A stretch of 31,100 nt of DNA, from IMG/VR virus record IMGVR_UViG_3300040960_001159, positions 1 to 31,100 of that record. One strand, 5' to 3'. The DNA comes from a virus. The position numbers were made by a program, and so were the translations under genes. The notes below the pieces were generated by a model that was not told the origin of the DNA, searched no databases, and saw nothing but the letters and a program-made list of their open reading frames with translations. This document shows, piece after piece, positions 6,846 through 31,100 of this stretch (position 1 is the first letter of the stretch; every line of letters starts with the position of its first letter).

Positions 6846-6874
6846 ATTATACCGTATTTAGTTTATAGAGTCAA
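6846..6874 (-). promoter_or_regulatory. sigma70-type early promoter of the DUF6433-like gene
   Basis: Minus-strand TTGACT (6874-6869), 17-base spacer, TATAAT (6851-6846). The -35 box is formed by the Leu-Asp-Ser codons near the end of endonuclease B, and the stop codon of that gene lies in the spacer. Confidence 0.83.
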
Positions 6875-11857: not shown

Positions 11858-12858
11858 ACTAAATCAAAAATAAAATCCCTAACAAATTTTTGTGAAATTC
11901 TCAAAAGATATGCAGCATTATCTTGGAATCCAAACGTCATGAGATAGTCATTACCATACTCACACATTCCAACTGCAAACTCCACCTCTGCTTCTAAGAA
12001 TGAAAATCTCCTGGATACTTTAGAGATCTGCCAATCCTTATCCCAAACAATGAAACGATGACGATATGTTCCATCCTTTCTATCTGCTTTACTCCTGAAA
12101 AGAAATGTCTCGTGGTTCAGTGCAATGTGTCTTCCAGAATCATCAAAAGGAATGACTTGTGAACCTCCGCGCAAATCAACACATCCCAAATCCTTCCAAT
12201 CAGTTACTATGACTTGAGAGGTCGTTTGCGTTCCAATATCAAATCGAACAACTTCAGTACCGTTAGTCCACTTCACAAAATGAAATGGCATGTCGATGAT
12301 TGGCATCCAATTCTTTTCACAATAAGAACCATCATCAACATGATGACCAGGAGTTGGGATACGATATTGCTTAACTTCCTTCACCCCATTCTCAGTAATC
12401 TCAATCTCAGAGAGTTCCATTCTACCCCTACCAGTGGGGTCAAGGTCTCTACGTACACCACACACATAGAGTTTTTCATCCCACCTCATGATACGGCAGT
12501 CTTCAAGTCCAACAAACTCCCAGAGTTCTTTATCTGGGAAACTGCTAGTATCAATATGATGATACCACTTGATAGACATATCATCATTCATCTCACACAT
12601 GATGTTCCATGTACGAAGACGAAGATCGTTCTCTGGGTGAATGTAGACTAGAGGTCCCCAGTGATGTTCAAATCTCTTTTTCTCAGAGTGAAATAGTGTA
12701 TAATTAATGTTCCTAAGATTACAAAGAATCCTACCATTATCATTATAGATGGAAGGATTAGTAAGTGCTGGTCCTTTCAGTTCATTGGATGGGATAATGA
12801 GAGGATGAATACTCCCACCATTCTCTAGAGCAAGTTTTACAAAGTTATCAGTAGTCAT
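11854..12858 (-). CDS. GH130-like five-bladed propeller glycan enzyme
   Basis: A 334-aa protein with the pattern of GH130 mannoside phosphorylases and related transferases: NPSIYNDNGRILCNLRN at 34-50, GLEDCRI at 117-123 (family GxEDPR), EKNWMP at 181-186, LRGGSQ, ALNHE and the final FAVGMCEYGNDYLMTFG. GH130 enzymes cleave beta-mannosides with phosphate; distant relatives are mannosyltransferases. The conserved Pro of EDPR is Cys here, so activity is uncertain. It lies 23 bases after the GT17-GT4 gene and overlaps the 1210-aa gene (ATGA). The context suggests trimming or transfer of mannose-like residues on the same glycan. Confidence 0.65.
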   Translation of the reverse strand: MTTDNFVKLALENGGSIHPLIIPSNELKGPALTNPSIYNDNGRILCNLRNINYTLFHSEKKRFEHHWGPLVYIHPENDLRLRTWNIMCEMNDDMSIKWYHHIDTSSFPDKELWEFVGLEDCRIMRWDEKLYVCGVRRDLDPTGRGRMELSEIEITENGVKEVKQYRIPTPGHHVDDGSYCEKNWMPIIDMPFHFVKWTNGTEVVRFDIGTQTTSQVIVTDWKDLGCVDLRGGSQVIPFDDSGRHIALNHETFLFRSKADRKDGTYRHRFIVWDKDWQISKVSRRFSFLEAEVEFAVGMCEYGNDYLMTFGFQDNAAYLLRISQKFVRDFIFDLV

Positions 12859-12881
12859 AAGATAGTCATTCCTATAGTTAA

Positions 12882-14810
12882 TTATACAACATTTTTAAAC
12901 ATCTCTGGAATGTCTCCATCCTTAACCCAAAGATGCTTATCAAGTTTAATCCAGTCCTTAACACGTGTCTCCCAAGAATAATAATCATTGACCTTCTTAA
13001 CTTGCTCAGTAGAATCAAACTTTCCTGCACGATATTCATCAATCGTCTCTTTAAGTTCTTGTGCGAAACGAATGATGTGCTTCTGCCTGTCAGGAATGAA
13101 ACCATACTGACGTGCAAATCCAAGTGATGTTTCAGGAAGTGCACCAAGATTACTGGAGACAACAGAGCATCCAGCAGCAAGAGCTTCAATCATACAAATA
13201 CATGAGGTCTCTTCGAAGTATGCAGGATATGCGAAGATGTGTGTCTTCATCAACTGCTCTCTAATTTGAGAGTTATTAGACCTGGTATGACGAACAACTC
13301 TCTTATCGGCAACGGCAAGACTTAAACAATAACGAAGGAATGCTTCTTCTTGTTGGCATACGTGAGAGTATTCATAGGTCTGCAGACCTTCAAGATACTG
13401 TTGCTTACGTGCATCAGGATCAAGTTCATGGTAAATGTGTAAATCAAAGTCTTCATCTGGAAGAAGTTTAATTGCCTCCAAAAGAACGTCAAGACCACGA
13501 ATGGGATTGGGATGGAACATCAATTGAAGTTTTCCATCACGCTTCTTGTGTGGTTCAAATGGTTTGATAGCGTTCTTCAAAACATAACACTTCTCTGCAG
13601 GAAGTTTAAAAGTCTCAACGAACCTCTCATATTGCCAATCAGACACAAAGACATATGCCTTGAAGTGTTTCTGGAACTGAGGGTCCATCAACTGTTCCAT
13701 ATTTGGTTCCCGATGATGAGGATGCAACCAAACGATATTGGAGTTGTCTGGAGAGATAATGTTGTCTCCAGGAATGACGCACCAGTGCCAGTCAGCAAGA
13801 TCAGGAGCAGCAGGCAATACATAATCCTGCCAAGCACGACCCATAATCTCTGTACCACCATTACCATCAGGATTCAATGACGCCTCAAGAAGAGGTGGCA
13901 TATGCTTTGGATCCACATACTGATTTGCTGGATTGGATGGATCCACATAACGACGTTTCTTAGATTGATCTGGATTAGTAATATCAGTCTCAGTAATATA
14001 ATACTCCTGAGAATAACCCTTGATAATAAAATCTCTTAGTTCTTCTGGAAGATTATAGAAGTTATATTCTTGGAAACTTTCTCCCCTTTGAAGAAGATCT
14101 TTTTTGTTCTTGATTGCATCAAGAATATTTTGATCGTTCTTATATTGCTCTTTATTATATTCCTGATGAGCAAATGAATCTAATTTATGTTTGATCTGTT
14201 CAACATCACCGAAGTATGAGAAGTGCCAACCACCATTTTGCACAGGGAAAAGTGTAAACCTTTGACTACGGAAGTAATCACATCCCTTCTGGAGAGCATT
14301 CTTCACACTGGTAAATACTGTTCCTGCCCAGTGGTTATGGCAGTATGTTGTGAAGTTATAGTAGAACATTTCACACTGGGCAACATAACAAAAGTCCTCA
14401 TCGAACCTTGCACCCATAAAGTTTTTAATAACTTCTTTGCGTGGAATTTCATCCACATCACTCACCATAAAGAGATCATTCAAAGAAAAACTAAAGAGAT
14501 TTTTAGTGATGAAATCTCTCTGTTCTCTCTCAAGTTTCCAATTTCCATTATCAAAATCACACTTCTCTACACTATCGGGAAGTGTAATCTGACTCAGATC
14601 TGGTTCATACTTAAGACGTGTAATCTTTTTCCTGATGTCCTCGGGAATCTCATTCCAAACTTCATCCAGGTAATAAGGTTTTGGTTTTCCCGAATGAGTA
14701 TAGTTTGACTCTGAAATGATAAAGTGATCGACAATATCATTCAAGTAATTCAAACGGAGTTTGAGCATATCAAACTCATTAAAGAATGTAAAACTATCGA
14801 TTACTTTCAT
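12882..14810 (-). CDS. GT17-GT4 fusion glycosyltransferase
   Basis: A 642-aa bifunctional protein. Residues 1-270 are GT17-like: MKVIDSFTFFNEFDMLKLRL, then IISESNYTHSGKPK, VSDVDEI at 116-122 as the metal-binding motif, and GGWHFSYFGD at 193-202. A linker with a duplicated YVDP motif (288-300) leads to a GT-B domain of GT4 type at 305-642. That domain has GGTEIMGRAW, FHPNPIRGLDVLLEA and the donor-binding segment EETSCICMIEALAAGCSVV at 533-551. A GT17 module also occurs in the 1210-aa protein, so modules have been duplicated and recombined. Overlaps the preceding gene by ATGA. Donor and acceptor sugars cannot be told. Confidence 0.85.
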   Translation of the reverse strand: MKVIDSFTFFNEFDMLKLRLNYLNDIVDHFIISESNYTHSGKPKPYYLDEVWNEIPEDIRKKITRLKYEPDLSQITLPDSVEKCDFDNGNWKLEREQRDFITKNLFSFSLNDLFMVSDVDEIPRKEVIKNFMGARFDEDFCYVAQCEMFYYNFTTYCHNHWAGTVFTSVKNALQKGCDYFRSQRFTLFPVQNGGWHFSYFGDVEQIKHKLDSFAHQEYNKEQYKNDQNILDAIKNKKDLLQRGESFQEYNFYNLPEELRDFIIKGYSQEYYITETDITNPDQSKKRRYVDPSNPANQYVDPKHMPPLLEASLNPDGNGGTEIMGRAWQDYVLPAAPDLADWHWCVIPGDNIISPDNSNIVWLHPHHREPNMEQLMDPQFQKHFKAYVFVSDWQYERFVETFKLPAEKCYVLKNAIKPFEPHKKRDGKLQLMFHPNPIRGLDVLLEAIKLLPDEDFDLHIYHELDPDARKQQYLEGLQTYEYSHVCQQEEAFLRYCLSLAVADKRVVRHTRSNNSQIREQLMKTHIFAYPAYFEETSCICMIEALAAGCSVVSSNLGALPETSLGFARQYGFIPDRQKHIIRFAQELKETIDEYRAGKFDSTEQVKKVNDYYSWETRVKDWIKLDKHLWVKDGDIPEMFKNVV

Positions 14811-16438
14811 TTCAGTGCCTCCTCAAGGAATGTGGTCATTGGACTTTGTTTGAACTTTTCAAGTGCTCGAACTGCACTTGCCTCTAGTTCTTCTGGTTTT
14901 TTAAGAAGTCTATAAGTTGTATCTACAAAACGATTATAGGTTGAAAGATTAACCGTATCTTCCATATAATCTGGGAAGTCAGTATCTGGTGCTCTCTCTG
15001 CAAGAATAGGAATACCCTGTTGGAGTGCATGAGAAATTCTCACCATCTCAAAGATCTTATTATCATAGTTATGAATATTAATAATCAACTTTGCTCTTGC
15101 CATCATATTATCTCTTTCTTCTCCATAAGTGCTTTGAAGATTAACAAAGTTAATATTAGGATTATTCTTGAACTGATCCATAATCTTCAGTCGTCTTGGA
15201 CCAGGAGACATATATGCAAGAATATCAATATCTCTCTTCTCAGGTGGTTGGCGTTCCACATAAGAAATCTCAGGAACATATCCAATAGGAACAACCTTAA
15301 TGTTCTCAACACCAGCAAGTTCAAGAGTTTCTTTATTGAAAACAGAATAATCCCAAACTTCTAGACCACGATACTTGCGGCACCAGCGAATACATTCTGG
15401 TGTATCACGCATTTGTTCTAGAGAATAGACAATAGTGTTCTTCGGTACATCGTGCCTCACAATATCTACAGGGCAGTGTTGCATACCAAAGACGATGTTT
15501 CTAGCATCAGGAACAAAGTCATTAATCGTATTTGTGACATCAAAACCCATTCTCTTCAACGTAAAGAAGAATGCTGCTTCAATTTCGTGAAAGACCTGAG
15601 CATGGACATAGTATCCATTATCGGGAACAATACGAACTAGATTAAACTTATCAGACTTTGCCTGAGTAATGTAGTTGTTTAAATTCATCGGTTTTTCTTC
15701 TTTCTTTTCTATAAATTTTTGAACTTCAGCAGACTCAGTATCTCTTACGTCCATATAATGAATTTTTGGATTTTGAGTTCCAACCCAAAGTTCAAATGCA
15801 TATCGGTAGTTTGAAGCACTATTGTTATTATAGTACTCATCTGCATCCAATGGATCACCTAGTTTCTTGATATGATCTGTAGATGCCCACCAAAAGTTTC
15901 CTGCAAAAGGATAAAAATCTTTATAGTAGTTTGCACCTACGCAATCATAACCTTCATCTAGTTTTTCAACACACTCTTTCCATCGTGTTACACAGTGGTG
16001 TTGCATATAACGACGCCACCTATGGTCTTCACCAAAAACTCCCCATGTATTATAGAAGTTCTCGGTCATACCTTTGTTGTGTAAGTATAACACATATCCA
16101 TCAGTTTTCAAAGAGTGCAGATACAACTCCTTGAGTGTTTGACCTTCAAAGATATTTGGTTGCTCACCGACATCACGAACATTTACAATCTCTGCAAATG
16201 GATATCGTTCAGTAATATATTCTAAAACAACTTCACTATAATTCTTTTCAACATAAACTGCACTATTTTTTTTAATCTGTCCTACCAGACCCAAAGGCAT
16301 CGTAATGCAAACTTTGACTTTTGTATTTTCTACTAGACCACTTTTTTGAATGAGACCGAGTTGTTCATCAACCCACCATACCCACATTCCAGATGTATTA
16401 GGAACAAACAGATGGTAAAAAACTGTAAGATTTTTCAT
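14807..16438 (-). CDS. two-domain glycan enzyme: shared RgpF-like domain plus CgeB-like GT-B
   Basis: A 543-aa protein. Residues 1-230 form a domain also present in the next gene upstream (466 aa): NLTVFYHLFVP, WVWWVDEQLGLIQKSGL, FEGQTLKELY, GYVLYLHNKGM at 114-124, and FAGNFWWAS at 178-186. The HNKG and GNFWWA elements recall rhamnan-synthesis (RgpF-type) domains. Residues 260-543 look like a GT-B glycosyltransferase of the CgeB / Glyco_trans_1_2 type (YSLEQMRDTPECIRWC, FEMVRISHALQQGIPILAE). Fold assignments are from motif memory. Coupled by ATGA overlaps at both ends. Confidence 0.65.
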   Translation of the reverse strand: MKNLTVFYHLFVPNTSGMWVWWVDEQLGLIQKSGLVENTKVKVCITMPLGLVGQIKKNSAVYVEKNYSEVVLEYITERYPFAEIVNVRDVGEQPNIFEGQTLKELYLHSLKTDGYVLYLHNKGMTENFYNTWGVFGEDHRWRRYMQHHCVTRWKECVEKLDEGYDCVGANYYKDFYPFAGNFWWASTDHIKKLGDPLDADEYYNNNSASNYRYAFELWVGTQNPKIHYMDVRDTESAEVQKFIEKKEEKPMNLNNYITQAKSDKFNLVRIVPDNGYYVHAQVFHEIEAAFFFTLKRMGFDVTNTINDFVPDARNIVFGMQHCPVDIVRHDVPKNTIVYSLEQMRDTPECIRWCRKYRGLEVWDYSVFNKETLELAGVENIKVVPIGYVPEISYVERQPPEKRDIDILAYMSPGPRRLKIMDQFKNNPNINFVNLQSTYGEERDNMMARAKLIINIHNYDNKIFEMVRISHALQQGIPILAERAPDTDFPDYMEDTVNLSTYNRFVDTTYRLLKKPEELEASAVRALEKFKQSPMTTFLEEALK

Positions 16439-17835
16439 TCTAATACCTTCGCAAATTCTGTTTTAATTTCGTCAATCAGTGTTTGATCTTTTGATACAAC
16501 TCCTAATCCATTTGAGATATGGAAATTAACTTTAGGAAGATCAATTTCACCAAAGAATTTTCTTACACCAAAACCAGGATTATTCACACAAGTGTCGTGG
16601 AAAAGAATAACACCATCTTCTTTCACAAACTTATTCCAAGTTTCATAATCATTCTTGACTGCCTCATAAGTATGAAGTCCATCAATGTGTAAAATATCAA
16701 TTGGTTTATCCCAAGTTTTTGCCACATCATCAAAGTATCCTTTAATGAAAGTGATATGATCAAATCCAAGTTCTTCTTTCTTTTCCTTCACATAATCATA
16801 AGTATCTCGTAGTCCTGCATGATCATCACCTTCAAAACTATCTATACCATAAATCTCACCAATTCTTGGCAGAGCAAAACAGAAAGTTGAATAAGCATAG
16901 TCAACACCAAGATCAACAACAACCTCTGGGTTCTTGCGTCTTACGATCCACTGAGCAAAAGTGATATGGTTCTTCCAGTTGAACTGATTTTTTGCACCAA
17001 CCAAAGTAATGATATGAACTGGATCTTTTGCCTGCTCTTCCATTGAAGGAAGATTAATATACCTTTCTTTAGGATAAAGTTCAAAATAATGATGAGCATT
17101 ACTTTGATGGAAAGAATAATAATTTGAATGATCTGTTTTACATCCGTGACCCATCCATACCTCAAAAGCATAACGATATGTCTTGAGATTCTCCATCATA
17201 TATTTCACATCAGAATACTTCTCCATATCCAACGGATCTGGAAGACTGCGAATATGCTTTGCGGTTGCCCACCAGAAGTTTCCTGCAAAGTGATTGCACA
17301 GGAACTTTTGTTCTTCCGTAAATGTATCCTGATTTAGATTTTCTTCCTTGAGAAGATTGATGCCACAAGCATCATATCCCTCATCAAGTTTTGCAATACA
17401 GTCCTTCCACTTTTCCAAATTAAAATAGTGCATTAATCGTTTCCAGTCACTCAACCCACCAGGAATATGAGTACCATAAGAACTCATTCCTTTATTGTGG
17501 AAGTAGAAAACATAACCATCAAAGGTTTGGCAGTAGTCCCAAAGTTTCTTAATCGTTTGACCTTCAAACCAGTTGGGTTCTTCATGTCTTCCTCGTACAT
17601 CAAGAACATTTACAAAAGGAAAATGATCCTTAATATACTCAATGACCATTTGATCAAAGGTCTTATTATTTTTTTGATTGACCATTCCAAGAGGAAGAGT
17701 GGTGCAAAGAAACACCTCCGCATTCTCTGCAAGTCCAGTGGATTGAAGAAGACCCATTTGTTCTTCAATCCACCAGACCCAAGACTCCATCGGTTCAGGA
17801 ATGAATAGGTGATAAAAGACTGCAAGTTTTTTCAT
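16435..17835 (-). CDS. two-domain glycan enzyme: shared RgpF-like domain plus methyltransferase
   Basis: A 466-aa protein. Residues 1-250 are paralogous to the N-terminus of the 543-aa protein (KLAVFYHLFIP, WVWWIEEQMGLLQSTGL, YFHNKGM at 111-117, FAGNFWWAT at 183-191). Residues 300-466 form a class I SAM-dependent methyltransferase of the Methyltransf_24 type: VVVDLGVDYAYSTF at 305-318, GIDSFEGDDH at 330-339, LHIDGLHTYEAV at 382-393, and ILFHDTCVNNPGFGV. It may methylate a glycan. The start overlaps the upstream GT by one base (TAATG) and the end overlaps the 543-aa gene (ATGA). Confidence 0.75.
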   Translation of the reverse strand: MKKLAVFYHLFIPEPMESWVWWIEEQMGLLQSTGLAENAEVFLCTTLPLGMVNQKNNKTFDQMVIEYIKDHFPFVNVLDVRGRHEEPNWFEGQTIKKLWDYCQTFDGYVFYFHNKGMSSYGTHIPGGLSDWKRLMHYFNLEKWKDCIAKLDEGYDACGINLLKEENLNQDTFTEEQKFLCNHFAGNFWWATAKHIRSLPDPLDMEKYSDVKYMMENLKTYRYAFEVWMGHGCKTDHSNYYSFHQSNAHHYFELYPKERYINLPSMEEQAKDPVHIITLVGAKNQFNWKNHITFAQWIVRRKNPEVVVDLGVDYAYSTFCFALPRIGEIYGIDSFEGDDHAGLRDTYDYVKEKKEELGFDHITFIKGYFDDVAKTWDKPIDILHIDGLHTYEAVKNDYETWNKFVKEDGVILFHDTCVNNPGFGVRKFFGEIDLPKVNFHISNGLGVVSKDQTLIDEIKTEFAKVLE

Positions 17836-18479
17836 TAAATTACCATCGTTTTTGTATGACCAACAATTACAGAAGGATCAACAAAGACCTGATGACCCTT
17901 TGCGGCAACTCTTTCACACCAATCTAGGTCTTCTCCTAGAGGAAGTGTATAAGTTGTTCCGTCAATTTCGTGTTGTACTTTTCCAAGACCAAACCACGGA
18001 CGACCAATATCTTCAAACACACCAGATTTTACACAAACAAAACCAAGACCAACACCATAAACAGGGAAAGTATTGAAGCGATATTTGATTTCCTGTTGCG
18101 CCATCATTCTATAACTATCCTTATGTTCGTGAATGACCGCATCACCATTATGAGACTCAAAATAAACACCAGAAACAACACTCCTATCACTGGAATAGAG
18201 TTTCATAAAGTCTTCTGGTTTCCATACAATATCACTATCAATCATAAACAGTTTATCATATGTAAAATTACCAAGTCCAGGTTCCCTTGATGTTACACAT
18301 ACATTACGACTACCAGCAATAGCAGCCTCTCTCGCATTTGTAACAAGAGAAGAGTGTTCGTTTTGATAGGTCCAGGTAATATTATTCTCTTCTAAAACCT
18401 TAATGGTTGCAAGCAATGACTTAACATAACCAGCAACCAATGAGTTTCCTGGGGTTGCAATCACAACATTGTAATGCAT
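17835..18479 (-). CDS. GT-A type glycosyltransferase, tandem paralogue 2
   Basis: A 214-aa single-domain protein. FMIDSDIVWKPEDF at 78-91 carries the DxD motif, EDLDWCERV near 190 is the second acidic site, and VGHTKTM near the end holds the metal-binding His. It is a clear paralogue of the 240-aa gene just upstream: YDKLFMIDSDI matches YDYIMWIDSDI, KSGVFEDIGRPWFGLGKVQ matches KKGVFESIPYPWFAPKKVQ, and VIVGHTKTMVI matches VRVGHQKMVVL. A short GT-A domain without membrane segments, probably cytoplasmic. TAATG overlaps link it to both neighbours. Confidence 0.82.
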   Translation of the reverse strand: MHYNVVIATPGNSLVAGYVKSLLATIKVLEENNITWTYQNEHSSLVTNAREAAIAGSRNVCVTSREPGLGNFTYDKLFMIDSDIVWKPEDFMKLYSSDRSVVSGVYFESHNGDAVIHEHKDSYRMMAQQEIKYRFNTFPVYGVGLGFVCVKSGVFEDIGRPWFGLGKVQHEIDGTTYTLPLGEDLDWCERVAAKGHQVFVDPSVIVGHTKTMVI

Positions 18480-19201
18480 TACAGAACCACCATCTTTTGA
18501 TGTCCAACACGGACCTTAGGATTACACCAGACCTCAAATCCATACTCCTTGAAGTCCTCACACATCGCAACGTCTTCAGAGCACATATCTTCAAGAATGG
18601 TTCCATCTTCTTTGATGAGTTGAACTTTCTTAGGAGCAAACCAAGGATAAGGAATACTCTCAAATACGCCTTTCTTCATCAGCACCCAACCAAAACCACA
18701 GTAATCTACCTTGAATGGTCCTGGACGACGTGCCATTTCTTCTACGGTCTCAAAGTGATAAGCACCTTTGTTGAGTAGAAGTTGCTTATCCATTTTCTCA
18801 ACCACAGTTGATTGATTGGAAATGGGAGTACCGTTGGACTGAATATACCATCCAGTCGCAATATCCTTATCCATTTTCAGGAGTTCAATCAAGTCTTCTG
18901 TCTTGAAGATAATATCACTATCGATCCACATAATGTAATCATAAGGAATTTGCCCTCGCCAAGGAGTCAGCATTGTTCCTGCAAAATTATCTGCCTGCAA
19001 GCAATCAGTTCTGGCAAAATTTACCATTGAACTATAATGCTGCGAAATATAAAAATTGATTCCCAACTGGTTCAGGTCAAAGACCAGACGGATCATTTGA
19101 GTCATAAAGGTTCCAGAGTACATTGCACCTGGAAGACAAAATGCTATTGTTTTGCCACGAAAATCGTCTTTGGGTTGATTTGTATAGTTCAGTTTCGACA
19201 T
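18479..19201 (-). CDS. GT-A type glycosyltransferase, tandem paralogue 1
   Basis: A 240-aa protein with WIDSDIIFKTEDL at 92-104 (DxD), SEDVAMCEDF near 215 and a C-terminal VGHQKMVVL. The frame is open to 19243, but the extra codons cover the extended -10 promoter at 19224-19232, so I use ATG 19201-19199 (MSKLNYTNQ). No ribosome site is obvious. It is the first gene of the glycan operon running to 7545 and the duplicate of the next gene. Substrate unknown. Confidence 0.82.
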   Translation of the reverse strand: MSKLNYTNQPKDDFRGKTIAFCLPGAMYSGTFMTQMIRLVFDLNQLGINFYISQHYSSMVNFARTDCLQADNFAGTMLTPWRGQIPYDYIMWIDSDIIFKTEDLIELLKMDKDIATGWYIQSNGTPISNQSTVVEKMDKQLLLNKGAYHFETVEEMARRPGPFKVDYCGFGWVLMKKGVFESIPYPWFAPKKVQLIKEDGTILEDMCSEDVAMCEDFKEYGFEVWCNPKVRVGHQKMVVL

Positions 19202-19223
19202 AAAAACAATCAGTTTATGATGT

Positions 19224-19232
19224 ATTATATCA
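19224..19232 (-). promoter_or_regulatory. extended -10 promoter of the glycan operon
   Basis: TGATATAAT on the minus strand, the same extended -10 as before gp59. No good -35 box is visible 17 bases upstream. Expected initiation near 19217, shortly before the first glycosyltransferase. Confidence 0.6.
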
Positions 19233-19246
19233 TATCTATACAAGTT

Positions 19247-22200
19247 TTACCACCAGGTAATTTTAACGTATCCATCACCACCATCACCACCGACTCCAAA
19301 ACGGTTTGTTTCTTGGGAGTATCCACCTCCACCACCTCCACCTCCTCTGGTTCCGTTGCCTCCATTAAATGCGATTGAGACTGTTTCTGCTGATGCTGTT
19401 GCCACACCTCCACCAGAAGAACCCAAAATAATCTTATTATTATCAGCAGATAAAGAATTATATGTTCCCCCATTAAGCAAATATACGTCTGTCCATACAA
19501 TACCATCTGTAGAAGAATTTAAATCTCCCAACCCACCAGCAAAATAAAGATTATTGATGTAGGTGAGAGAATAAATGACTCCTAGACGAGAAGTTCTATA
19601 AGTCCATACAATTGTATCTGTAGAAGTTGTTAGAACTCCACCAACACCACCAGAGGCATAAAGACCATTACCATAAGTAAGAGCATCAATATCCGATGTA
19701 CCAAATCCAGAAGTTCTTTGTTCCCATACAATAGTATCTGTAGAAGTTGTTAGAGTTCCACTATCACCACCAGCAACATAAAGATCATTACCATAAATGA
19801 GAGAACGAATATGTGTTGTACCAAATCCAGAAGTTCTTTGAGTCCATACAATAGTATCTGTAGAAGCTGTTAGTTTTCCACTAAGACCACCAGCAACATA
19901 AAGATTATTAACATAAGTAAGAGTATTAATAGTACCAGTTCCAGAAGTTCTTCGAATCCATACAATAGCATCTGTAGAAGTTGTTAGAGTTCCACTAGTA
20001 CCACCAGCAACATAAAGATTATTACCATAAGTGAGGGAAAAAATTGCTACTGTAAATCCAGAAGTTCTATAAGTCCAAGCAATAGCATCTGTAGAAGTTG
20101 TTAGAGTTCCACCAGAACCACTACCAGCAATATAAAGATCATTTGCAGCAAGAACTACAGTACTAGAATTTGGTAATCCAGCATTTCTCGGATACCAACT
20201 ATTCAATCCTTCACTAATCGCAGAACCTCCTCCACCACCAGAACCATAAGACCCCGTGAGTACTGGGTCGATTCCGTCATTATTTGTTTGGTCATAAATA
20301 TCGAGAGCACTTGAGGTTATTAGAGTTCCACTATTACCAGAAACAACGAAGAAATTATTTCCAAAAGTAGAACTATTAATAGTGTTTGTAGTATTTGAAG
20401 TTCTTGGTGTCCAAACTATTGTATCTGTTGAGGTTCTTATAGTTCCACCAGCACCCCCAGCAATATAAAGATTATTATTATAAGTTAAAGATCTAATTTC
20501 TGATGTACCAAATCCAGAAGTTCTACGAGTCCATACAATACTATCTGTAGAAGTTGTTAGAGTTCCACCTCCACCACCAGCAACATAAAGATTATTAACA
20601 TAGATGAGGGCATGAATTTGTGTCGATACGGTTGAGGTTGTTCTCGCAATCCAAACAATACCATCAGTAGAAACTCTTAGATTTGAAGTATTCCAACCAC
20701 CCAAAACATAAAGACCATTACCATAAGTTAATGCAGTAATTTCAGAAAAACCTCCAGAAGTTCTTTGAGTCCATACAATAGTATCTGTAGAAGTTGCTAC
20801 TCCTAGATTGGTGCCGAAACCACCAGCAGCAACATAAAGATTATTACCATAAGTGAGTTCAGAAATACCTGTATTAGTCGCAGCAAGACTAGAAGTTCTT
20901 TGAGTCCAAACAATAGTATCTGTAGAAGTTGTTAGAGTTCCACCAAAACCACCAGCAACATAAAGATTATTAACATAATTAACAGTAAGTGTACCAAATC
21001 CAGAAGTTCTTGCAACCCACCCAATACTATCAGTTGAAACTCTTATTGTTTCACTATTACCCATATAATACTGAGGAACATCAACATCTTCATCAGTACC
21101 TAGTGCAGTTTCTATCAGTCCAGAATCACCAACCGCAACATAATTATCAGTACCACTAAGGAATAAAGAATTTCCATACAACTTATTATTTCCTCCTATA
21201 ATTTCATTTACATTACTTGAAGTTGTCTTGAACGTATCAGTCCAGGATATACCATCAGTAGAAATTATAATAGTTCCATTATCACCACCAACAGTATAAA
21301 GACCATTTTCATAAGTAATTGTATTAAGATCGATTGTTTCATTGAGACCTGATGTTCTTGCGGTCCAACTGATTGTATCGGTTGATTGTGAGATTGAACC
21401 TTTTGTATCAAAGATTGGTGAGGTTGCTATGATTCCATTCTGTCCAGCGGCAATAAACAAATTCAAACTGGTATTATATTTTAAATCTCTAATATCCGTT
21501 GTTCCAAATCCAGAAGTTCTATAAGTCCATACAATAGTATCTGTAGAAATTCCAATTGTACCAGAACTTGTAGCAACGACATATATTGGATCCTTGTAAT
21601 CAATATCTTTAATATTTTCATTTAGAAATATTGAAGTTCTTAAAGACCATCTAATACCATCAGTTGATGTCGTTATTCTACCATTTTCTGATCCAACGAC
21701 ATAAAGATTATTTCCATATGTTCCGACCATATTCAAACTTGCAGCAGCAATTCCATGTGATCTAAAAGTCCAAACAATAGTATTAGTTGATGTTTGAACT
21801 TGTTGATTACCACCAGTAATCATGTACTTTTCTACTAAATTGGAAGCATATGAAAAACTTCCAACACGAGAATTAGCTTCTAAAGGTGCTAAACAAGTTC
21901 TTGCCGACCATACAATAAGATCAGTAGATGCCCACACCGCCATCTGACCGTTAGTAGAACCCTGCCCACCAATATAGTATAAAGAGTCATCCGAAACATA
22001 TTTAAGAGATTTTGGTCCAAATCCCAAACTAGAAGATACTCCAGAAACCGTTCTTAAAGTCCATATAATACCATCAGTAGAAGTTGAAAACACTCCCAAA
22101 CTAAACATACAAGTATACAAATAATTATTAATATATTCTAAATTTTGAATAAAATTAGAAGTTGTTGAAGTTCTTAGAGTCCAAGTTAGAAAATCTGAAG

Positions 22201-25200
22201 ACACTGCTATTTGACCAGATACACCACCTCTATAATATAAATTGCCATCATAATCAATAGTACTAATAAGTGAAGTAGTACCAGAAGTTCTTTGAGTCCA
22301 TAAAGAACCCTCTAAGTATCCACCACCAACGGCAACATAAGAACTACCATCATAAGCAACACCATTAATATAATCACTTGTGATTGTGGTGGTTCTGGAA
22401 GACCATATGATTCCAGTTGTGGATGTTATGAGTGCTGAGTCGTTATAGAGTTCTGTTGAGGTTGTTAGAGTTCCACTATCACCACCAGCAACAAAGATAT
22501 TATTACCATAAGTGAGAGCACGAACACTCGATGTACCAAATCCAGGATTTCTTTGTTCCCATACAATAGTATCTGTAGAAATTGTTAGAGTTCCACTAGA
22601 ACCACCAGCAACATAAACCTCATTAGCATAAAGAATTTCGAATATTTTTGTTGTACCAAACCCAGAAGTTCTTTTTTCCCATGTAATAGTATCTGTAGAA
22701 ATTGTTAGAGTTCCACTATCACCACCAGCAACATAAAAACCATTACCATAGGTTAGTCCATTAAAATTAATTGCAGTTCCCCCACCAAACCCAGAAGTTC
22801 TTTGTTCCCATACAATTGTATCTGTAGAAGTTGTTAAAGTTCCACTTTGACCACCAGCAACATAAAGATTATTAGCATAAGTAAGAGCAAGAACAGAAGA
22901 TGTACCAAATCCAGAAGTTCTTAATTCCCATACAATAGTATCTGTAGAAGTTATTATAATTCCGCCAGTACCACCAACAATATAAAGATTATTACCATAA
23001 GTGAGAGAACCAATGATTGTGCCAGATAATCCAGAAGTTCTATAAGTCCATACAATCGTATCTGTAGAAATTGTTAAAACTGGATTAGGACCACCACCAG
23101 CAACATAAAGATTATTTCCATAAGTGAAAGAAATAATTGCTGTTGTACCAAATCCAGAAGTTCTTTGAGTCCATACAATACCATTTGTAGAAGTTGTTAG
23201 AGTTCCAGTAAAACCACCAGCAACATAAAGATTATTAACATAAGTGAGACCATAAATTGCAGATGTACCAAATCCAGAAGTTCTTTGAGTCCATAAGTCT
23301 CCAGCAGGTGCATAATCAAGACCACCACCAGCAAGATAAGTTTGTGGAGCATAATCTATAGACTTAATATCATAACCAAAATCTAAACCAGAAGTTCTTC
23401 TAGTCCAGTTGATTTGGTTGGTTGATGTTAAAATGTTTTGATTCTCACCAACGGCAACATAAGGTTGGTTCTTATATCCTGGACGATTATATGCTAGTGA
23501 GGTTGTTAGAGTTCCACTATCACCACCAGCAACATAAAGATTATTACCATAAGTAAGAGCATAAATGTCTGTAGTACCAAATCCAGAAGTTTTATAAATC
23601 CAAACAATAGCATCTGTAGAAGTTGTTAGAGTTCCACTACCACCACCAGCAACATAAAGATTATTCTCATAAGTAAGAGTAAGAATAGTTGTTGAACCAA
23701 ATCCAGAAGTTCTTAATTCCCATACAATAGTATCTGTAGAAGTTGCTAGTTTTCCAATAAAACCACCAGCAACATAAAGATTATTACCATAAGCAAGAGT
23801 AAGAATAGTTGTTGAACCAAATCCAGAAGTTCTACGAGTCCATACAATAGTATCTGTAGAAGTTGTTAGAGTTCCATCAAATACACCACCACCAGCAACA
23901 TAAAGATTATTAGCATAAATTAGAGATTGAATTGCTGTTGAACCAAATCCAGAAGTTCTATATTCCCAAACAATCGTATCTGTAGAAGTTGTTATAGTTC
24001 CAACAAAACCACTAGCAACATAAAGATTATTGCCATAAGTAAGAGTACTTATTGACGTTGAACCAAATCCAGAAGTTCTATAAGTCCATACAATACTATC
24101 TGTAGAAGTTGTTAGAGTTCCACTAGCACTAGCACCACCAGCAACAAAAAGATTATTACCATAAGTGAGAGTACTAATTTGTGTTGCGCCAAATCCAGAA
24201 GTTCTTTGTTCCCATACAATAGTATCTGTAGAAGTTGTTAGAGTTGCACTTTCACCAGCAGCAACATAAAGATTATTAGTATAAGTAATAGAATAAATTG
24301 TTCTTGTACCAAATGTACCAAATCCAGAAGTTCTCAGTACCCATTCACTTCCTGCTTCAATAACACTCTCATAAGGATCAGCAGATATAATTTCGTTAAA
24401 GGTTTCGGTAATACCAGAAGTTCTTAGACTCCAGGAAATAGTATCAGTAGAAGTATCAATCTTACCTGTGGTTCCTGATGCTAAGTATCCTTTGGGACTT
24501 ATTTCGTATGCATAGTCTGGTGAGGTTGTGATAGATAATCCGCCACCGACAACATAAAGATTATTACCATAAACAGCAGATTGTAAATTACTTATTCCAG
24601 CAGTCCTTAAGGTCCAAGAAATTCCATCAGTAGAAATTGATAATCTGTAGTCTTGTGGCCCTGCGTTTCCACCGACAGCAACATAAAAACCACTACCATA
24701 GGAAACAGAAGTAATACTGAAATTTGCACCAGCAATTTTCGTTACTCTAGAAGTCCATACAATCGTATCTGTAGAAGTTCTTAATTTACCTTCACCACCA
24801 GCAACAACATAAAGATTATTAGCATAAAGTAAACTTTTCCATCCATTTAAAACATTATTATCTCCAGAAGTTCTGTAAGTCCATGCAATAGTATCTGTAG
24901 AAATTAGAATTTCACTACCACCAGCAAGAACATAAAGACCATTACCGTAAGTAACATCACCAATAAATCCAGCACCAGAAGTTCTACGAGTCCATGTCTG
25001 TGTATCAGTTGATGTTGATAGAGTTGCACCACCACCAAGAACATAAAGACCATCACCATAAGAAATACCTCTAATTGCGTCATTTCCACCAAAACCAGTA
25101 CTATATCTACGATCCCACGTATAACCATCTGTTGATACAAATAGAATATCAGTACCACCAACAAAGAAAAGATTATTAGCAAATCTAGCAGTAAAAAGTC

Positions 25201-28200
25201 TCTGCGAAGGAGATGAATGAGATACTGTTTTTTCCCATACGATAGAATCGGTAGAAGAAATTATACCTGCGGTTCCAGCAAAAGTAAATCCCGTAGCAAC
25301 ATAAATTCCATTACCAAAAGTAACTTCTTCAATATTACTAATGTCACTAGTAATTCCAGAAGTTCTCAAAGTCCAAATACCTAAATCACCACTAAAATTA
25401 CTATCATCATAAACAAGTTTATCAGTCGCATAATGAGCAGTATTATAAGAACTCTGTGCAGTTCTTAAGGTCCAATTAACAGTATCAGTTGATTGGAGTA
25501 CTTCTGTTCCTACGGCAAGGTATTCTCCAGGAGAAGAAGTAATTGAATTAATATTATTAACTACACTAGAAGTCTTTACTATCCAATTAGTTGCTTTAGG
25601 TATTGTATAAGTATATGGAGGACTATAGGTAAGTGCATTTAGATTGAATGCAGTTCCTGAGGTTCTTAGATTCCATAAAGAACCTTTTGGATATTTTAGA
25701 TACGCTTGTGCGAGTGCTGTATAAGTATTTCCGTAATAATAAGTCGTTGAAGATCCTCCATCATATGACCCATAAGCACCTCCACCTCCAGAAGATACTT
25801 GCATATCAAATTGTTGTGCCACTGAAAATGATTCACCTGCAATACTTCTTCCAGATCCTCCATTAACACTATCAGCAGCATAAAGATAATTACGAGTTGG
25901 ATATGATAAATTAGTAGAAGACCCTCCACCTGTTGTACTAGTATTACTACCTCCACTAGGATTGGAACCAAATGATGCCCTATAATTTATAGTGCCAGTT
26001 GGAGAGTTTCCAGTCCAAGTAACATTTGTAATACCTCCAGAACCTCCACCACCAGCAGAAGAAACACCACCAGCAATCAAGAGATTGTTTCCGTAGGTGA
26101 GAGCATTAATTGTTGAATTTTTAAATAATGAAGTTCTATAAGTCCATACAATTGTATCTGTAGAAGTTGTTAGAGTTCCCCTATCACCACCAGCAATATA
26201 AAGACCATTGCTATAAGTAAGAGAACGAATGAATGTTGTACCAAATCCAGAAGTTCTTTGTTCCCATACAATAGTATCTGTAGAAGTTATTAAAGTTCCA
26301 CCAGCACCACCAGCAAGATAGAGATTATTAACATAAATGAGAGAATTAATTTGTGATGTACCAAATCCAGAAGTTCTTTGAGTCCATACAATCGTATCTG
26401 TAGAAGTTGTGAGAGTTCCACTTTGACCACCAGCAACATAAAGATTATTAGCATAGATAAGAGAATAAATTGTCGATCCACCAAATCCAGAAATTCTTTG
26501 TTTCCATACAATAGTATCTGTAGAAGTTGCTATAGTTCCAATAGCACCACCAGCAACATAAAGATTATTGTTAAAAAGAAGTGTGATGATATTCGTATTT
26601 CCAAATCCAGAAGTTCTTTGAGTCCATACAATAGTATCTGTAGAAGCTGTTAGTTTTCCAAAAGCACCACCAGCAACATAAAGATTATTTCCATAAGTGA
26701 GAGTATAAATTACAGACGTGCTAAGTCCATAAGTTCTACTAGTCCAAGTAATACCATCGGGAGAAGTTGATAGAGTTCCATTAACTAGACCACCACCAGC
26801 AACATAAAGATTATTTCCGTAAGTGAGGGCATAAATTATTGATGTACCAAATCCAGAACCAACTGCTTCCCAAGTTTGACCATCAGTACTAATAGACATT
26901 CCACGACTATTTCCACCAACACCACCAGAACCAACGGTGACTGACATCGTAGAAGCATTTCCAAGTTCTGCTCTGCGAATTAACCAAGAAGCATAAGCAC
27001 CATGACCACCCCCACCACCAGAACCTAATGTTCCAAAGTAGCGTCCTGATGCTCCACCTGCTCCACCACCGATTGCTTCAATATAAAAAGTTTTTGCATA
27101 TGGTGGAATATTGAATGTTGAGTTTCCAGGAGTTGTGAATTCCTCATAACCCTTATATGATAATTGTTCTGGTTGTGGTGATGAAGTATCTGCAAGACTT
27201 TCCCAGTATTGTTGAGTTTCTAGTGATACTGTGATAGTTCCACCTTGACCACCAGCAACATAAAGATTATTAACATAAGTAAGAGCATTAATGATCGATG
27301 AACCAAATTCAGAAGTTCTTTTAGTCCATACAATCGTATCTGTAGAAGTTGTTAGAGTTGCCCCAGAACCACCAGCAACATAAAGATCATTACCATAAAT
27401 GAGAGAACGAATTTGTGATGTACCAAATCCAGAAGTTCTTTGCTCCCATACGATACTATCTGTAGAAGTTGCTAGAGTTCCACTACCACCACCAGCAACA
27501 TAAAGATTATTACCATATGTAAGAGCATAAATTATTGATGAACTAAATCCAGAAGTTCTATAAGTCCATACAATACTATCTGTAGAAGTTGTTAGAGTTC
27601 CACTACCACCAGCAACATAAAGATTATTACCATAGATGAGAGTATTAATGTTTGTACTATCAAATCCAGAAGTTCTTGAAGTCCATGTGTTTCCGTCAGT
27701 AGAAACTGAAATGTTGTCAAAAGGTGTAGCAAAATATAATCCATTAGCATATAAAGTAGCATTAATTCCAGCAGAACCAGTAAAACTAACACTTTTATAA
27801 GTCCAAACAATACCATCAGTGGATACAGTAAATGCAGAATTTTGACCACCAGCGATATATAAACCATTGCCATAACTAATAGTATTAATTTGTGATGTAC
27901 CAAATCCAGAAGTTCTATAAGTCCATACAATACTATCTGTAGAAGTTGCTAGAGTTCCACTACCACCACCAGCAACATAAAGATTATTACCATATGTAAG
28001 AGCATAAATTATTGTTGTACCAAATCCAGAAGTTCTTTGTGCCCATAAAATCGTACCAGGATAAACACTCAAAAACTTTCCAATATCTTGAGTTGATGGA
28101 TCAATTATACGTTTCGCACCATCAACATAACTCTTCGAAGCCGCATCAGTAGATGCTAAAACATCAGTGATTCCTTTTATACTGTGCTTTCTAATCTGCG

Positions 28201-28204
28201 ACAT
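19247..28204 (-). CDS. giant glycine-rich adhesin with nested Asp-box propellers (2985 aa)
   Basis: The N-terminus (residues 1-50) is tail-fibre-like, with ASKSYVDGAKRI. A glycine-rich scaffold begins with EEFTTPGNSTFNIPPYAKTF, runs through islands near 26900-27204, 25690-26070 and 20200-20280, and ends with GGDGGDGYVKITWW. This is the style of poly-glycine receptor-binding tips of T4-like phages. Most of the rest is a ~40-aa repeat of the form W-TxRTSGFGT-x3-LTYGNNLYVAGG-SGTLTTSTDTIV-W. STDTIVW is an Asp-box (S-x-D-x3-W), the turn motif of BNR/sialidase-type propellers. About 55 boxes fall into blocks described separately. No sialidase catalytic residues are seen, so binding or spacing is more likely than catalysis. 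A late box lies upstream. The ribosome site is weak. Confidence 0.82.
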   Translation of the reverse strand: MSQIRKHSIKGITDVLASTDAASKSYVDGAKRIIDPSTQDIGKFLSVYPGTILWAQRTSGFGTTIIYALTYGNNLYVAGGGSGTLATSTDSIVWTYRTSGFGTSQINTISYGNGLYIAGGQNSAFTVSTDGIVWTYKSVSFTGSAGINATLYANGLYFATPFDNISVSTDGNTWTSRTSGFDSTNINTLIYGNNLYVAGGSGTLTTSTDSIVWTYRTSGFSSSIIYALTYGNNLYVAGGGSGTLATSTDSIVWEQRTSGFGTSQIRSLIYGNDLYVAGGSGATLTTSTDTIVWTKRTSEFGSSIINALTYVNNLYVAGGQGGTITVSLETQQYWESLADTSSPQPEQLSYKGYEEFTTPGNSTFNIPPYAKTFYIEAIGGGAGGASGRYFGTLGSGGGGGHGAYASWLIRRAELGNASTMSVTVGSGGVGGNSRGMSISTDGQTWEAVGSGFGTSIIYALTYGNNLYVAGGGLVNGTLSTSPDGITWTSRTYGLSTSVIYTLTYGNNLYVAGGAFGKLTASTDTIVWTQRTSGFGNTNIITLLFNNNLYVAGGAIGTIATSTDTIVWKQRISGFGGSTIYSLIYANNLYVAGGQSGTLTTSTDTIVWTQRTSGFGTSQINSLIYVNNLYLAGGAGGTLITSTDTIVWEQRTSGFGTTFIRSLTYSNGLYIAGGDRGTLTTSTDTIVWTYRTSLFKNSTINALTYGNNLLIAGGVSSAGGGGSGGITNVTWTGNSPTGTINYRASFGSNPSGGSNTSTTGGGSSTNLSYPTRNYLYAADSVNGGSGRSIAGESFSVAQQFDMQVSSGGGGAYGSYDGGSSTTYYYGNTYTALAQAYLKYPKGSLWNLRTSGTAFNLNALTYSPPYTYTIPKATNWIVKTSSVVNNINSITSSPGEYLAVGTEVLQSTDTVNWTLRTAQSSYNTAHYATDKLVYDDSNFSGDLGIWTLRTSGITSDISNIEEVTFGNGIYVATGFTFAGTAGIISSTDSIVWEKTVSHSSPSQRLFTARFANNLFFVGGTDILFVSTDGYTWDRRYSTGFGGNDAIRGISYGDGLYVLGGGATLSTSTDTQTWTRRTSGAGFIGDVTYGNGLYVLAGGSEILISTDTIAWTYRTSGDNNVLNGWKSLLYANNLYVVAGGEGKLRTSTDTIVWTSRVTKIAGANFSITSVSYGSGFYVAVGGNAGPQDYRLSISTDGISWTLRTAGISNLQSAVYGNNLYVVGGGLSITTSPDYAYEISPKGYLASGTTGKIDTSTDTISWSLRTSGITETFNEIISADPYESVIEAGSEWVLRTSGFGTFGTRTIYSITYTNNLYVAAGESATLTTSTDTIVWEQRTSGFGATQISTLTYGNNLFVAGGASASGTLTTSTDSIVWTYRTSGFGSTSISTLTYGNNLYVASGFVGTITTSTDTIVWEYRTSGFGSTAIQSLIYANNLYVAGGGVFDGTLTTSTDTIVWTRRTSGFGSTTILTLAYGNNLYVAGGFIGKLATSTDTIVWELRTSGFGSTTILTLTYENNLYVAGGGSGTLTTSTDAIVWIYKTSGFGTTDIYALTYGNNLYVAGGDSGTLTTSLAYNRPGYKNQPYVAVGENQNILTSTNQINWTRRTSGLDFGYDIKSIDYAPQTYLAGGGLDYAPAGDLWTQRTSGFGTSAIYGLTYVNNLYVAGGFTGTLTTSTNGIVWTQRTSGFGTTAIISFTYGNNLYVAGGGPNPVLTISTDTIVWTYRTSGLSGTIIGSLTYGNNLYIVGGTGGIIITSTDTIVWELRTSGFGTSSVLALTYANNLYVAGGQSGTLTTSTDTIVWEQRTSGFGGGTAINFNGLTYGNGFYVAGGDSGTLTISTDTITWEKRTSGFGTTKIFEILYANEVYVAGGSSGTLTISTDTIVWEQRNPGFGTSSVRALTYGNNIFVAGGDSGTLTTSTELYNDSALITSTTGIIWSSRTTTITSDYINGVAYDGSSYVAVGGGYLEGSLWTQRTSGTTSLISTIDYDGNLYYRGGVSGQIAVSSDFLTWTLRTSTTSNFIQNLEYINNYLYTCMFSLGVFSTSTDGIIWTLRTVSGVSSSLGFGPKSLKYVSDDSLYYIGGQGSTNGQMAVWASTDLIVWSARTCLAPLEANSRVGSFSYASNLVEKYMITGGNQQVQTSTNTIVWTFRSHGIAAASLNMVGTYGNNLYVVGSENGRITTSTDGIRWSLRTSIFLNENIKDIDYKDPIYVVATSSGTIGISTDTIVWTYRTSGFGTTDIRDLKYNTSLNLFIAAGQNGIIATSPIFDTKGSISQSTDTISWTARTSGLNETIDLNTITYENGLYTVGGDNGTIIISTDGISWTDTFKTTSSNVNEIIGGNNKLYGNSLFLSGTDNYVAVGDSGLIETALGTDEDVDVPQYYMGNSETIRVSTDSIGWVARTSGFGTLTVNYVNNLYVAGGFGGTLTTSTDTIVWTQRTSSLAATNTGISELTYGNNLYVAAGGFGTNLGVATSTDTIVWTQRTSGGFSEITALTYGNGLYVLGGWNTSNLRVSTDGIVWIARTTSTVSTQIHALIYVNNLYVAGGGGGTLTTSTDSIVWTRRTSGFGTSEIRSLTYNNNLYIAGGAGGTIRTSTDTIVWTPRTSNTTNTINSSTFGNNFFVVSGNSGTLITSSALDIYDQTNNDGIDPVLTGSYGSGGGGGSAISEGLNSWYPRNAGLPNSSTVVLAANDLYIAGSGSGGTLTTSTDAIAWTYRTSGFTVAIFSLTYGNNLYVAGGTSGTLTTSTDAIVWIRRTSGTGTINTLTYVNNLYVAGGLSGKLTASTDTIVWTQRTSGFGTTHIRSLIYGNDLYVAGGDSGTLTTSTDTIVWEQRTSGFGTSDIDALTYGNGLYASGGVGGVLTTSTDTIVWTYRTSRLGVIYSLTYINNLYFAGGLGDLNSSTDGIVWTDVYLLNGGTYNSLSADNNKIILGSSGGGVATASAETVSIAFNGGNGTRGGGGGGGGYSQETNRFGVGGDGGDGYVKITWW
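19395..20197 (-). repeat. propeller block P8 in the giant adhesin
   Basis: Seven Trp anchors: NSW plus six Asp-boxes. Lies between the scaffold island GSGGGGGSAISEG and the terminal NGGNGTRGGGGGGGG segment. Confidence 0.7.
20310..21055 (-). repeat. propeller block P7 (six anchors)
   Basis: Starts with ETIRVSTDSIGW and has only six Trp anchors, the exception to the seven rule. It follows the apparent closure of the host propeller and precedes the glycine island DPVLTGSYGSGGGGG. Confidence 0.55.
21420..22300 (-). repeat. nested propeller block P6
   Basis: Seven Trp anchors: SLW plus six boxes, more diverged than P4 and P5. Lies between GGYLEGSLW and PIFDTKGSISQST, at the same blade turn as P5. 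Confidence 0.65.
22455..23293 (-). repeat. nested propeller block P5
   Basis: 838 bp with seven Trp anchors: DLW plus six Asp-boxes. Lies between LDYAPAGDLW and TELYNDSALITST, at the turn between the last two strands of a host blade. Confidence 0.7.
23498..24343 (-). repeat. nested propeller block P4
   Basis: Seven Trp anchors: SEW plus six Asp-boxes. Starts after EAGSEW and ends TTS before LAYNRPGYKNQ, where the host blade resumes at PYVAVGE. Units are nearly identical. Confidence 0.7.
24520..25375 (-). repeat. nested propeller block P3
   Basis: Seven Trp anchors: LGIW plus six Asp-boxes. Starts after FSGDLGIW and ends TTS before PDYAYEISPKG, where the host blade resumes at GYLASG. It is more diverged than P4 and P5. 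Confidence 0.65.
26075..26900 (-). repeat. propeller block P2 in the giant adhesin
   Basis: Seven Asp-boxes between the scaffold segments GSGGVGGNSRG and SSAGGGGSGG. Here the permutation differs: the block opens with the Asp-box strand (MSISTDGQTW) and ends after the LLIAGG strand. Confidence 0.7.
27205..28042 (-). repeat. propeller block P1 in the giant adhesin
   Basis: About 838 bp, seven units of 120 bp with seven Trp anchors. It begins right after TILW (residue 54) and ends at QQYW, before the scaffold resumes as ESLADTS. Units are near-identical. Confidence 0.75.
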
Positions 28205-30958: not shown

Positions 30959-31100
30959 CTACCACCAAGTGATTTTGACATATCCATCACCACCGTTCCC
31001 TCCTTCTCCTGCGAGTTCGGTTCCTGTTGTAGTATCTAGGAGATATCCACCTCCACCACCTCCACCACCTCTGGATCCGTCTCCACCTCTTCCTGCGATT
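30959..31100 (-). CDS. C-terminus of a third glycine-rich adhesin (cut by window edge)
   Basis: Forty-six codons and a TAG stop are visible. They read IAGRGGDGSRGGGGGGGGYL, then a short polar loop, then GGNGGDGYVKITWW, the same ending as the two adhesins downstream. This shows at least three tandem paralogues. Whether it also carries Asp-box blocks cannot be seen; the last 46 residues contain none. Confidence 0.85.
   Translation of the reverse strand, partial: IAGRGGDGSRGGGGGGGGYLLDTTTGTELAGEGGNGGDGYVKITWW

Follow-up and report, generated by a model that had tools for sequence, protein, structure and literature searches.

We analyzed a 31.1-kb virus record from IMG/VR (IMGVR_UViG_3300040960_001159, positions 1 to 31,100), called the window below. 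It carries T4-like genes for a helicase loader, a late-transcription regulator, PhoH, an exonuclease, and thymidylate synthase, and it comes from an uncultured T4-like phage that is probably a cyanophage. Our subject is P0001, one intact open reading frame (ORF) of 2985 amino acids on the minus strand (19247-28204), in which we count nine predicted seven-bladed Asp-box beta-propellers. An earlier note on this DNA had proposed that whole propellers sit in the blade turns of another propeller between positions 20310 and 25675, an interval that maps to residues 844-2632 of the ORF. All of the sequence tests that we ran (phase continuity, seven-blade closure, order of the host pieces, presence or absence of inserts, and shared history and selection of host halves) supported nested propellers in P0001.

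Most of P0001 is a repeat of 37 to 47 residues, with the consensus, read from its W, of WTLRTSGFGTSAINALTYGNNTYVAGGASGTLNTSTDAIT. All blocks show an Asp-box hairpin (S-x-D-...-W) at intervals of ∼40 residues, between the third and fourth strands of each blade. The repeat can be read as a propeller blade with the strand order D, A, B, C, the Asp-box preceding D. A free-standing propeller consists of one D strand without an Asp-box (a "naked" W), six full blades, and a final A-B-C, which gives seven blades, a 1+3 velcro closure, and n-1 Asp-boxes. Every fully parsed propeller that starts on a D strand has one naked W strand and six Asp-box W strands; the exception to this layout is P2, which has a 2+2 closure, with C-D at its start and A-B at its end. 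The propeller blocks had been described as near-identical, which is too strong: P1, P2, P4, P5, and P8 are mutually about 78 to 84% identical in DNA, and P3 and P6 are clearly diverged. P6 (21413-22309) nevertheless carries a patch of 45 to 58 nt that is 91 to 98% identical to P1, P2, P4, P5, and P8. Together with the DNA identity of 75 to 84% among most blocks, this patch suggests (recent) exchange among repeats within the gene as the source of new rings.

We parsed P0001 with a cyclic 40-position profile hidden Markov model (HMM) of the blade that allows free jumps at a cost and has no nesting built in. P1 through P6 and P8 emerged as contiguous propellers, and between them lay short pieces that start or stop in mid-blade. 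The following features, all on the minus strand, are listed from the N terminus and come from this parse unless stated otherwise. Propeller P1 (27221-28054, residues 51-328) has seven blades, is un-nested, and lies between an N-terminal "TDAAxKxYVD...GKFLSVYPG" segment and the first part of a glycine-rich domain (EFTTPG...IEAIGGGAGG...; 26906-27142, residues 355-433), which aligns with its counterpart in orthologues; a match to PF21722 was obtained in a paralogue, P0002. Propeller P2 (26060-26905, residues 434-715) occupies a glycine-rich loop and is followed by the middle part of the glycine-rich domain (25682-26059, residues 716-841), which in two relatives (L011 and L028) has no propeller at its end. 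There follows the 5' part of an outer host propeller, H0 (SLWNLRTSGTAFNLNALTYSPPYTYTIP; 25598-25681, residues 842-869), comprising the velcro D strand, A, and B.

The next pieces alternate between a second host, Q, and its four inserts. Q piece 1 (25385-25597, residues 870-940) contains a D strand (ATNW), blade 1 (TVNW), and the start of blade 2, in whose A-B turn lies the seven-bladed P3 (24509-25384, residues 941-1232; also modeled with AlphaFold2 and searched with Foldseek). Q piece 2 (24353-24508, residues 1233-1284) resumes with B, C, and D (TISW) and begins blade 3, whose A-B turn holds the seven-bladed P4 (23492-24352, residues 1285-1571). Q piece 3 (23303-23491, residues 1572-1634) supplies B, C, D (QINW), A, and B, and the B-C turn of blade 4 then holds the seven-bladed P5 (22448-23302, residues 1635-1919). 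Q piece 4 (22310-22447, residues 1920-1965) adds C, D (GIIW), A, and B, and the B-C turn of blade 5 holds P6 (residues 1966-2264), whose seven blades are diverged and which contains the best DUF6242 (Pfam) stretch in P0001 (2095-2186). Q piece 5 (21089-21412, residues 2265-2372) provides C, D (TISW), blade 6 (GISW), and an A-B-C blade 7 that closes Q. The 3' part of H0 (20303-21067, residues 2380-2634), which would be "P7" in the numbering of the earlier note, runs from strand C (TIRVSTDSIGW) onward and completes seven blades. Propeller P8 (19373-20206, residues 2667-2944; seven blades) lies in the last glycine-rich loop, and the C-terminal end of the glycine-rich domain (GGGGGGGGYSQETNRFGVGGDGGDGYVKITWW; 19250-19372), recognized from the sequence itself and from a C-terminal pattern, ends the protein.

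The phase of the breaks is what a host interrupted by complete rings would give. Before P5 and P6, Q stops at HMM positions 27-28, the end of strand B, and after them it restarts at positions 31 and 29, in strand C. The restarts that follow P3 and P4 fall at positions 17-22, in strand B; the A strands of Q right before these two inserts were too diverged for the HMM, so that their entry points are less sharp than those of P5 and P6. One Q piece has five strands (B C D A B), after which the next restart is at C instead of B, the shift that nesting demands. With a profile trained without the window sequence, the five Q pieces joined together formed one continuous 7.0-blade run, and their native cyclic order ranked first of 24. 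In a linear permutation of the pieces the native order ranked only 22nd of 120, because rings are cyclic. The earlier claim of a host built from diverged fragments thus holds up: all seven of its anchors are present, P3 to P6 are complete blocks with seven D strands each in its blade turns, and the host resumes in register after them. The insert sites were also correctly assigned to the A-B turn (P3 and P4) and the B-C turn (P5 and P6), with the softer entries just described for the first pair.

An additional level had been overlooked, as Q itself lies inside another propeller. The initial D-A-B strands of a propeller are missing from the would-be P7 and are found ∼1500 residues upstream, at residues 842-869, right before Q. 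The continuous-blade score was 426.1 bits for residues 2380-2634 and rose to 443.9 bits (+17.8) when residues 842-869 were joined to them, with the maximum at the in-phase cut. Since the two halves of H0 join in phase, Q lies within its first B-C turn. The order from the outside in is the glycine-rich domain, H0, Q, and P3 to P6, with two propeller-in-propeller levels. Each of the six propellers concerned (P3 to P6, Q, and H0) has seven D strands, which shuffled run lengths give with a P of about 0.0006.

To place P0001 among its relatives, we fetched IMG/VR sequences with degenerate patterns for the C terminus (GDGYVKITWW) and for the blade; further scans yielded orthologues of P1 and P0002. 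No close relative of P0001, or of Q taken by itself, was obtained in searches made for this purpose. An unconstrained repeat HMM revealed the same nesting grammar in about 20 IMG/VR contigs. Four contigs (L011, L014, L028, and L029) carry the same gene as P0001, with P1, P2, and P8 in matching places and nothing at the H0 site. P1 carries one insert in L064 and L077 and two in L033 and L018; L016 has a Q-like propeller within a propeller, with two inserts, and a hand parse of L032 gave a tree four rings deep. The nest-carrying relatives also include an ORF of 3589 amino acids (L091). The deepest nest is a 4380-amino-acid ORF (L089:3424-16563, minus strand; identical to L090:3458-16597) that reads as 13 propellers, one inside another: 12 entries in a row, a complete innermost ring, and 12 exits, with all rings closing at seven. 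Every entry uses a B-C turn of the preceding ring, that of blade 1 or 2 or, for the outermost ring, blade 4, and all shells retain seven blades with Asp-boxes. The 4380-amino-acid ORF is identical in two IMG/VR contigs (104 and 177 kb), as is the 3589-amino-acid ORF in two others. These identical ORFs in paired contigs, whose samples are perhaps not independent, speak against assembly error. No bacterial or archaeal match to the blade pattern was obtained in an 84,980-species collection of cellular genomes.

Closure was counted only in sections with equal numbers of entries and exits, a criterion that ignores blade counts. In the seven balanced sections, 36 of the 36 propellers count seven blades; when run lengths were shuffled within sections, the mean was 8.8 and the maximum 19 (5000 trials). 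Sections were left out where the automatic classifier missed or added an entry or exit, and two of these (L016 and L033), checked by hand from the HMM segments, count seven throughout. Early automatic parses of L041, L078, L026, and L049 had given five or other counts; in L041 and L078 the 13-layer gene is incomplete, being truncated by the ends of the loci. Upstream of the 13-layer gene, at L098:290-8872, long ORFs are open on both strands, opposite each other.

Orthologous P1 propellers with and without an insert differ by one block of 298 to 311 residues, about seven blades. Aligned without flanks, the un-nested propellers were slid across the insert by MAFFT; aligned with flanks, the gap fell close to the B-C turn.

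Host halves that are far apart in the chain also appear to share a history. For shells 2-11 of the 13-layer protein (L089), the similarity matrices of the 5' halves and the 3' halves were correlated under last-in-first-out pairing (Mantel r = 0.50, permutation P = 0.006), and the correlation disappeared under reversed pairing (r = -0.18). The halves that share these patterns lie up to about 3,400 residues apart. Shells 3 and 5 (68% and 73% identical) and shells 4 and 6 (54% and 64%) look as if one pair of shells had been duplicated. Selection follows the same partition. Between L093 and L094, the split P1 host has ratios of nonsynonymous to synonymous substitution rates (dN/dS) of 0.24 in one half and 0.25 in the other, and the insert between them has 0.57. 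Rates track the proposed domains rather than position in the chain, and the split host, being under stronger purifying selection than its insert, is not decaying.

For structure prediction, P3 of the window was modeled with AlphaFold2 and 83 seven-blade units, giving a predicted local distance difference test (pLDDT) value of 87.4 and a predicted template modeling (TM) score of 0.87. A Foldseek search with this model returned 900 PDB chains at E ≤ 0.001. The matches include seven-bladed beta-TrCP (TM score, 0.70 to 0.73), viral BNR and DUF6242 propellers (TM score, about 0.8), and a chain of 8am5 (RCII/PSI complex; TM score, 0.70; 18% identity) that we take to be Ycf48. As modeled, this single insert is a propeller, a closed toroid. 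The other blocks are predicted by homology to share the closed fold, and all rings of a nest would presumably close simultaneously.

Several observations weigh against a nested adhesin. The empty orthologues fix the size of the insert in P1, but the repeats leave its edge uncertain by one blade in a one-gap alignment. For P3 and P4, nesting depends on diverged A strands, and among the isolate phages examined none has a nested propeller. AlphaFold2 on the complete one-insert nest of L064, with two sequences only, gave a low-confidence model (pLDDT, 51) that lends the nest no support and that we take as a failed prediction, not as evidence; its Foldseek matches were unrelated, mostly solenoid-type structures (E > 0.7). 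Finally, the proposed function (tail, receptor, sugar) rests on gene neighborhood and fold. Could the same blades form a flat array, in which propellers follow one another in tandem and stray or degenerate blades, the "host" pieces, link them? Asp-box propellers do occur in tandem (GH74, type 3 in PMC2716378), and the orthologue alignment by itself would permit a one-blade shift of the insert edge. However, a flat reading yields run lengths of 1 to 7 blades without a rule, whereas a stack reading closes every propeller at seven. A flat array also has to accommodate the similarity patterns shared by distant host halves, the selection shared by split halves, and the shift of the restart from B to C after the five-strand Q piece, and we consider it very unlikely. 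That the blades stack linearly into an open solenoid or fiber, with rings that never close, is exceedingly improbable. The only whole-nest model looked solenoid-like, but its confidence was below a useful level, and with 83 sequences the same blades gave a closed propeller; moreover, counting to seven with n-1 Asp-boxes per unit would be unexpected in a solenoid.

Two further explanations accept the nesting. In one, the hosts are decaying relics of recombination, and the inserts alone fold and work. Q in the window is indeed more diverged than P4 and P5, but the lower dN/dS of the split host in L093/L094 and the retention of seven Asp-box blades in all shells of the 4380-amino-acid protein make relic hosts highly improbable. 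In the other, the protein is nested as described and yet binds no receptor, acting for example as a virion decoration, a spacer, or a matrix protein. Related single propellers of isolates are annotated as baseplate wedge components; still, the fast evolution of an insert, the tail fiber gene neighbors, and the glycine-rich, tail-fiber-like organization fit host contact better. We regard a non-receptor role as unlikely.

The gene neighborhood in the window and in relatives bears on this question. A second giant gene, P0002 (28232-30946, minus strand, 904 amino acids), lies 5' of P0001, and beside it a third gene is cut by the window edge (30962-31093). P0002 is a paralogue with the same glycine-rich design, in which two un-nested seven-bladed propellers interrupt the glycine-rich domain, and its relatives occur in the same gene arrays in 15 other contig records. 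It matches Gly_rich_2 (PF21722) with 25.4 bits (gathering threshold, 24.3) at residues 406-580. The same search gave no match in P0001, whose glycine-rich pieces are split by propellers. Upstream of the arrays in relatives are collagen-like and S74-chaperone tail fibers and baseplate-wedge-like proteins, and in one relative psbA (photosystem II D1, E = 6e-171; L101:5148-6218) lies beside tail genes upstream of the propeller array. This relative is a cyanophage, marked by psbA, and the tail-type neighbors together with psbA point to the tail module of a T4-like cyanophage. In isolate phages we found only single or few related propellers, several of which form part of baseplate wedge initiator proteins in Synechococcus phages.

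On the 3' side of the adhesin array, the window has a cluster of large glycosyltransferase and methyltransferase genes (8225-18479). A cluster of the same kind lies downstream of arrays in other contigs (L097 and L099). Tandem phrog_1574 paralogues (17835-18479 and 18479-19243; phrog_1574 is of unknown function) lie between the adhesin and the glycosyltransferases. Elsewhere in the window a phrog_10829 protein occurs twice (1237-1839 and 6858-7451), and the second copy also matches phage homing endonucleases.

Taken together, we consider it quite likely that P0001 is a tail-associated adhesin encoded by a T4-like cyanophage, and that its seven-bladed Asp-box beta-propellers form a tree in which rings are plugged into rings; its branched shape, tail location, and glycan binding are presumed. 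How might such a protein arise? In each propeller the N-terminal outer strand would complete the ring (1+3 velcro) and so place its two ends side by side, and a ring with adjacent ends could be inserted in another ring's turn. Close termini are typical of inserted domains (PMC13114784). A whole ring would thus plug into an A-B or B-C blade turn and leave the host ring unbroken. Repeated plugging from a pool of blocks homogenized by recombination could then produce rings within rings and, in P0001, the succession from the glycine-rich domain through H0 and Q to P3-P6. The outer rings may serve as a conserved scaffold and the inner rings as heads that evolve faster and contact sugars on the host surface, and the innermost ring presumably closes before its hosts. 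We also favor, with more reserve, the broader view that this architecture is open-ended and self-similar, a tree of same-fold rings whose depth is not fixed (13 layers seen) and which serves as an evolvable branched receptor-binding organ.

Such a protein would offer phages a possible route to build and reshuffle multivalent, branched, swappable attachment organs. One fold repeatedly inserted in itself probes the possible depth of nesting and the order in which such a chain folds, and the natural series with no, one, two, four, and twelve inserts could be used in folding experiments and with AlphaFold-type predictors. Annotation that assumes contiguous repeats misses proteins of this kind; a PHROGs search of P0001 gave zero matches.

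The propellers of P0001 resemble known Asp-box (BNR) propellers (sialidases, GH74, Vps10, and Ycf48; PMC2716378) in the C/D position of the Asp-box, the n-1 Asp-boxes, and the 1+3 velcro, and they share seven blades with GH74. Four organizational types of Asp-box proteins have been described, namely, single propellers, propellers interrupted by another domain, tandem propellers, and an interrupted stretch giving two propellers (PMC2716378). Unlike all four types, the propellers of P0001 are interrupted by propellers, recursively. The likeness to Ycf48 is one of fold similarity only. Sialidases (GH33/GH58) have a six-bladed propeller, a catalytic arginine triad, and an F/YRIP motif as hallmarks; the units of P0001 have seven blades. 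In RbmC/Bap1-type adhesins, a lectin or prism domain is inserted in a propeller. The Vibrio cholerae sialidase (PMC2716378, type 2) likewise accepts a whole domain in a blade turn. In contrast to both, the insert in P0001 has the host's own fold and hosts in turn. DDB1 and CPSF160, in which one propeller interrupts another in sequence, also have several propellers per chain (BPA, BPB, and BPC), but they are fixed three-ring scaffolds that lack the recursive plug-in series and the variation in ring number of the P0001 family. The gp38-type adhesins at phage tail-fiber tips have a similar glycine-rich core, which presents variable segments at the tip; their loops are short, whereas those of P0001 are complete propellers and propeller trees.

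P0001 and its relatives show recursive domain insertion, of the form A1-B1-C-B2-A2 with the host resuming after the insert. The arrangement had been called undescribed in the earlier note, and we likewise found no nested or inserted propellers of this sort in the open-access literature (subscription papers were outside the search). Domain insertion and the Asp-box propeller are known; the depth is, as far as we have seen, unprecedented. Domain insertion is usually shallow, with inserts usually smaller than their hosts. In a 2026 survey of 2.7 million domains, inserts were smaller than hosts in 77% of events, and the deepest nesting was six levels, in Si3 of the cyanobacterial RNA polymerase beta' (PMC13114784). 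Si3 resembles the P0001 family in having domains nested in one another, but its domains are small hybrid-motif domains of a housekeeping enzyme; the P0001 family nests whole 280-residue rings through up to 12 insertion levels, its inserted branch is far larger than the host, and its ring number differs between phages. If the open-ended ring tree is correct, no domain nesting known would be deeper, and no protein dendrimer built by recursion of one fold would precede it.

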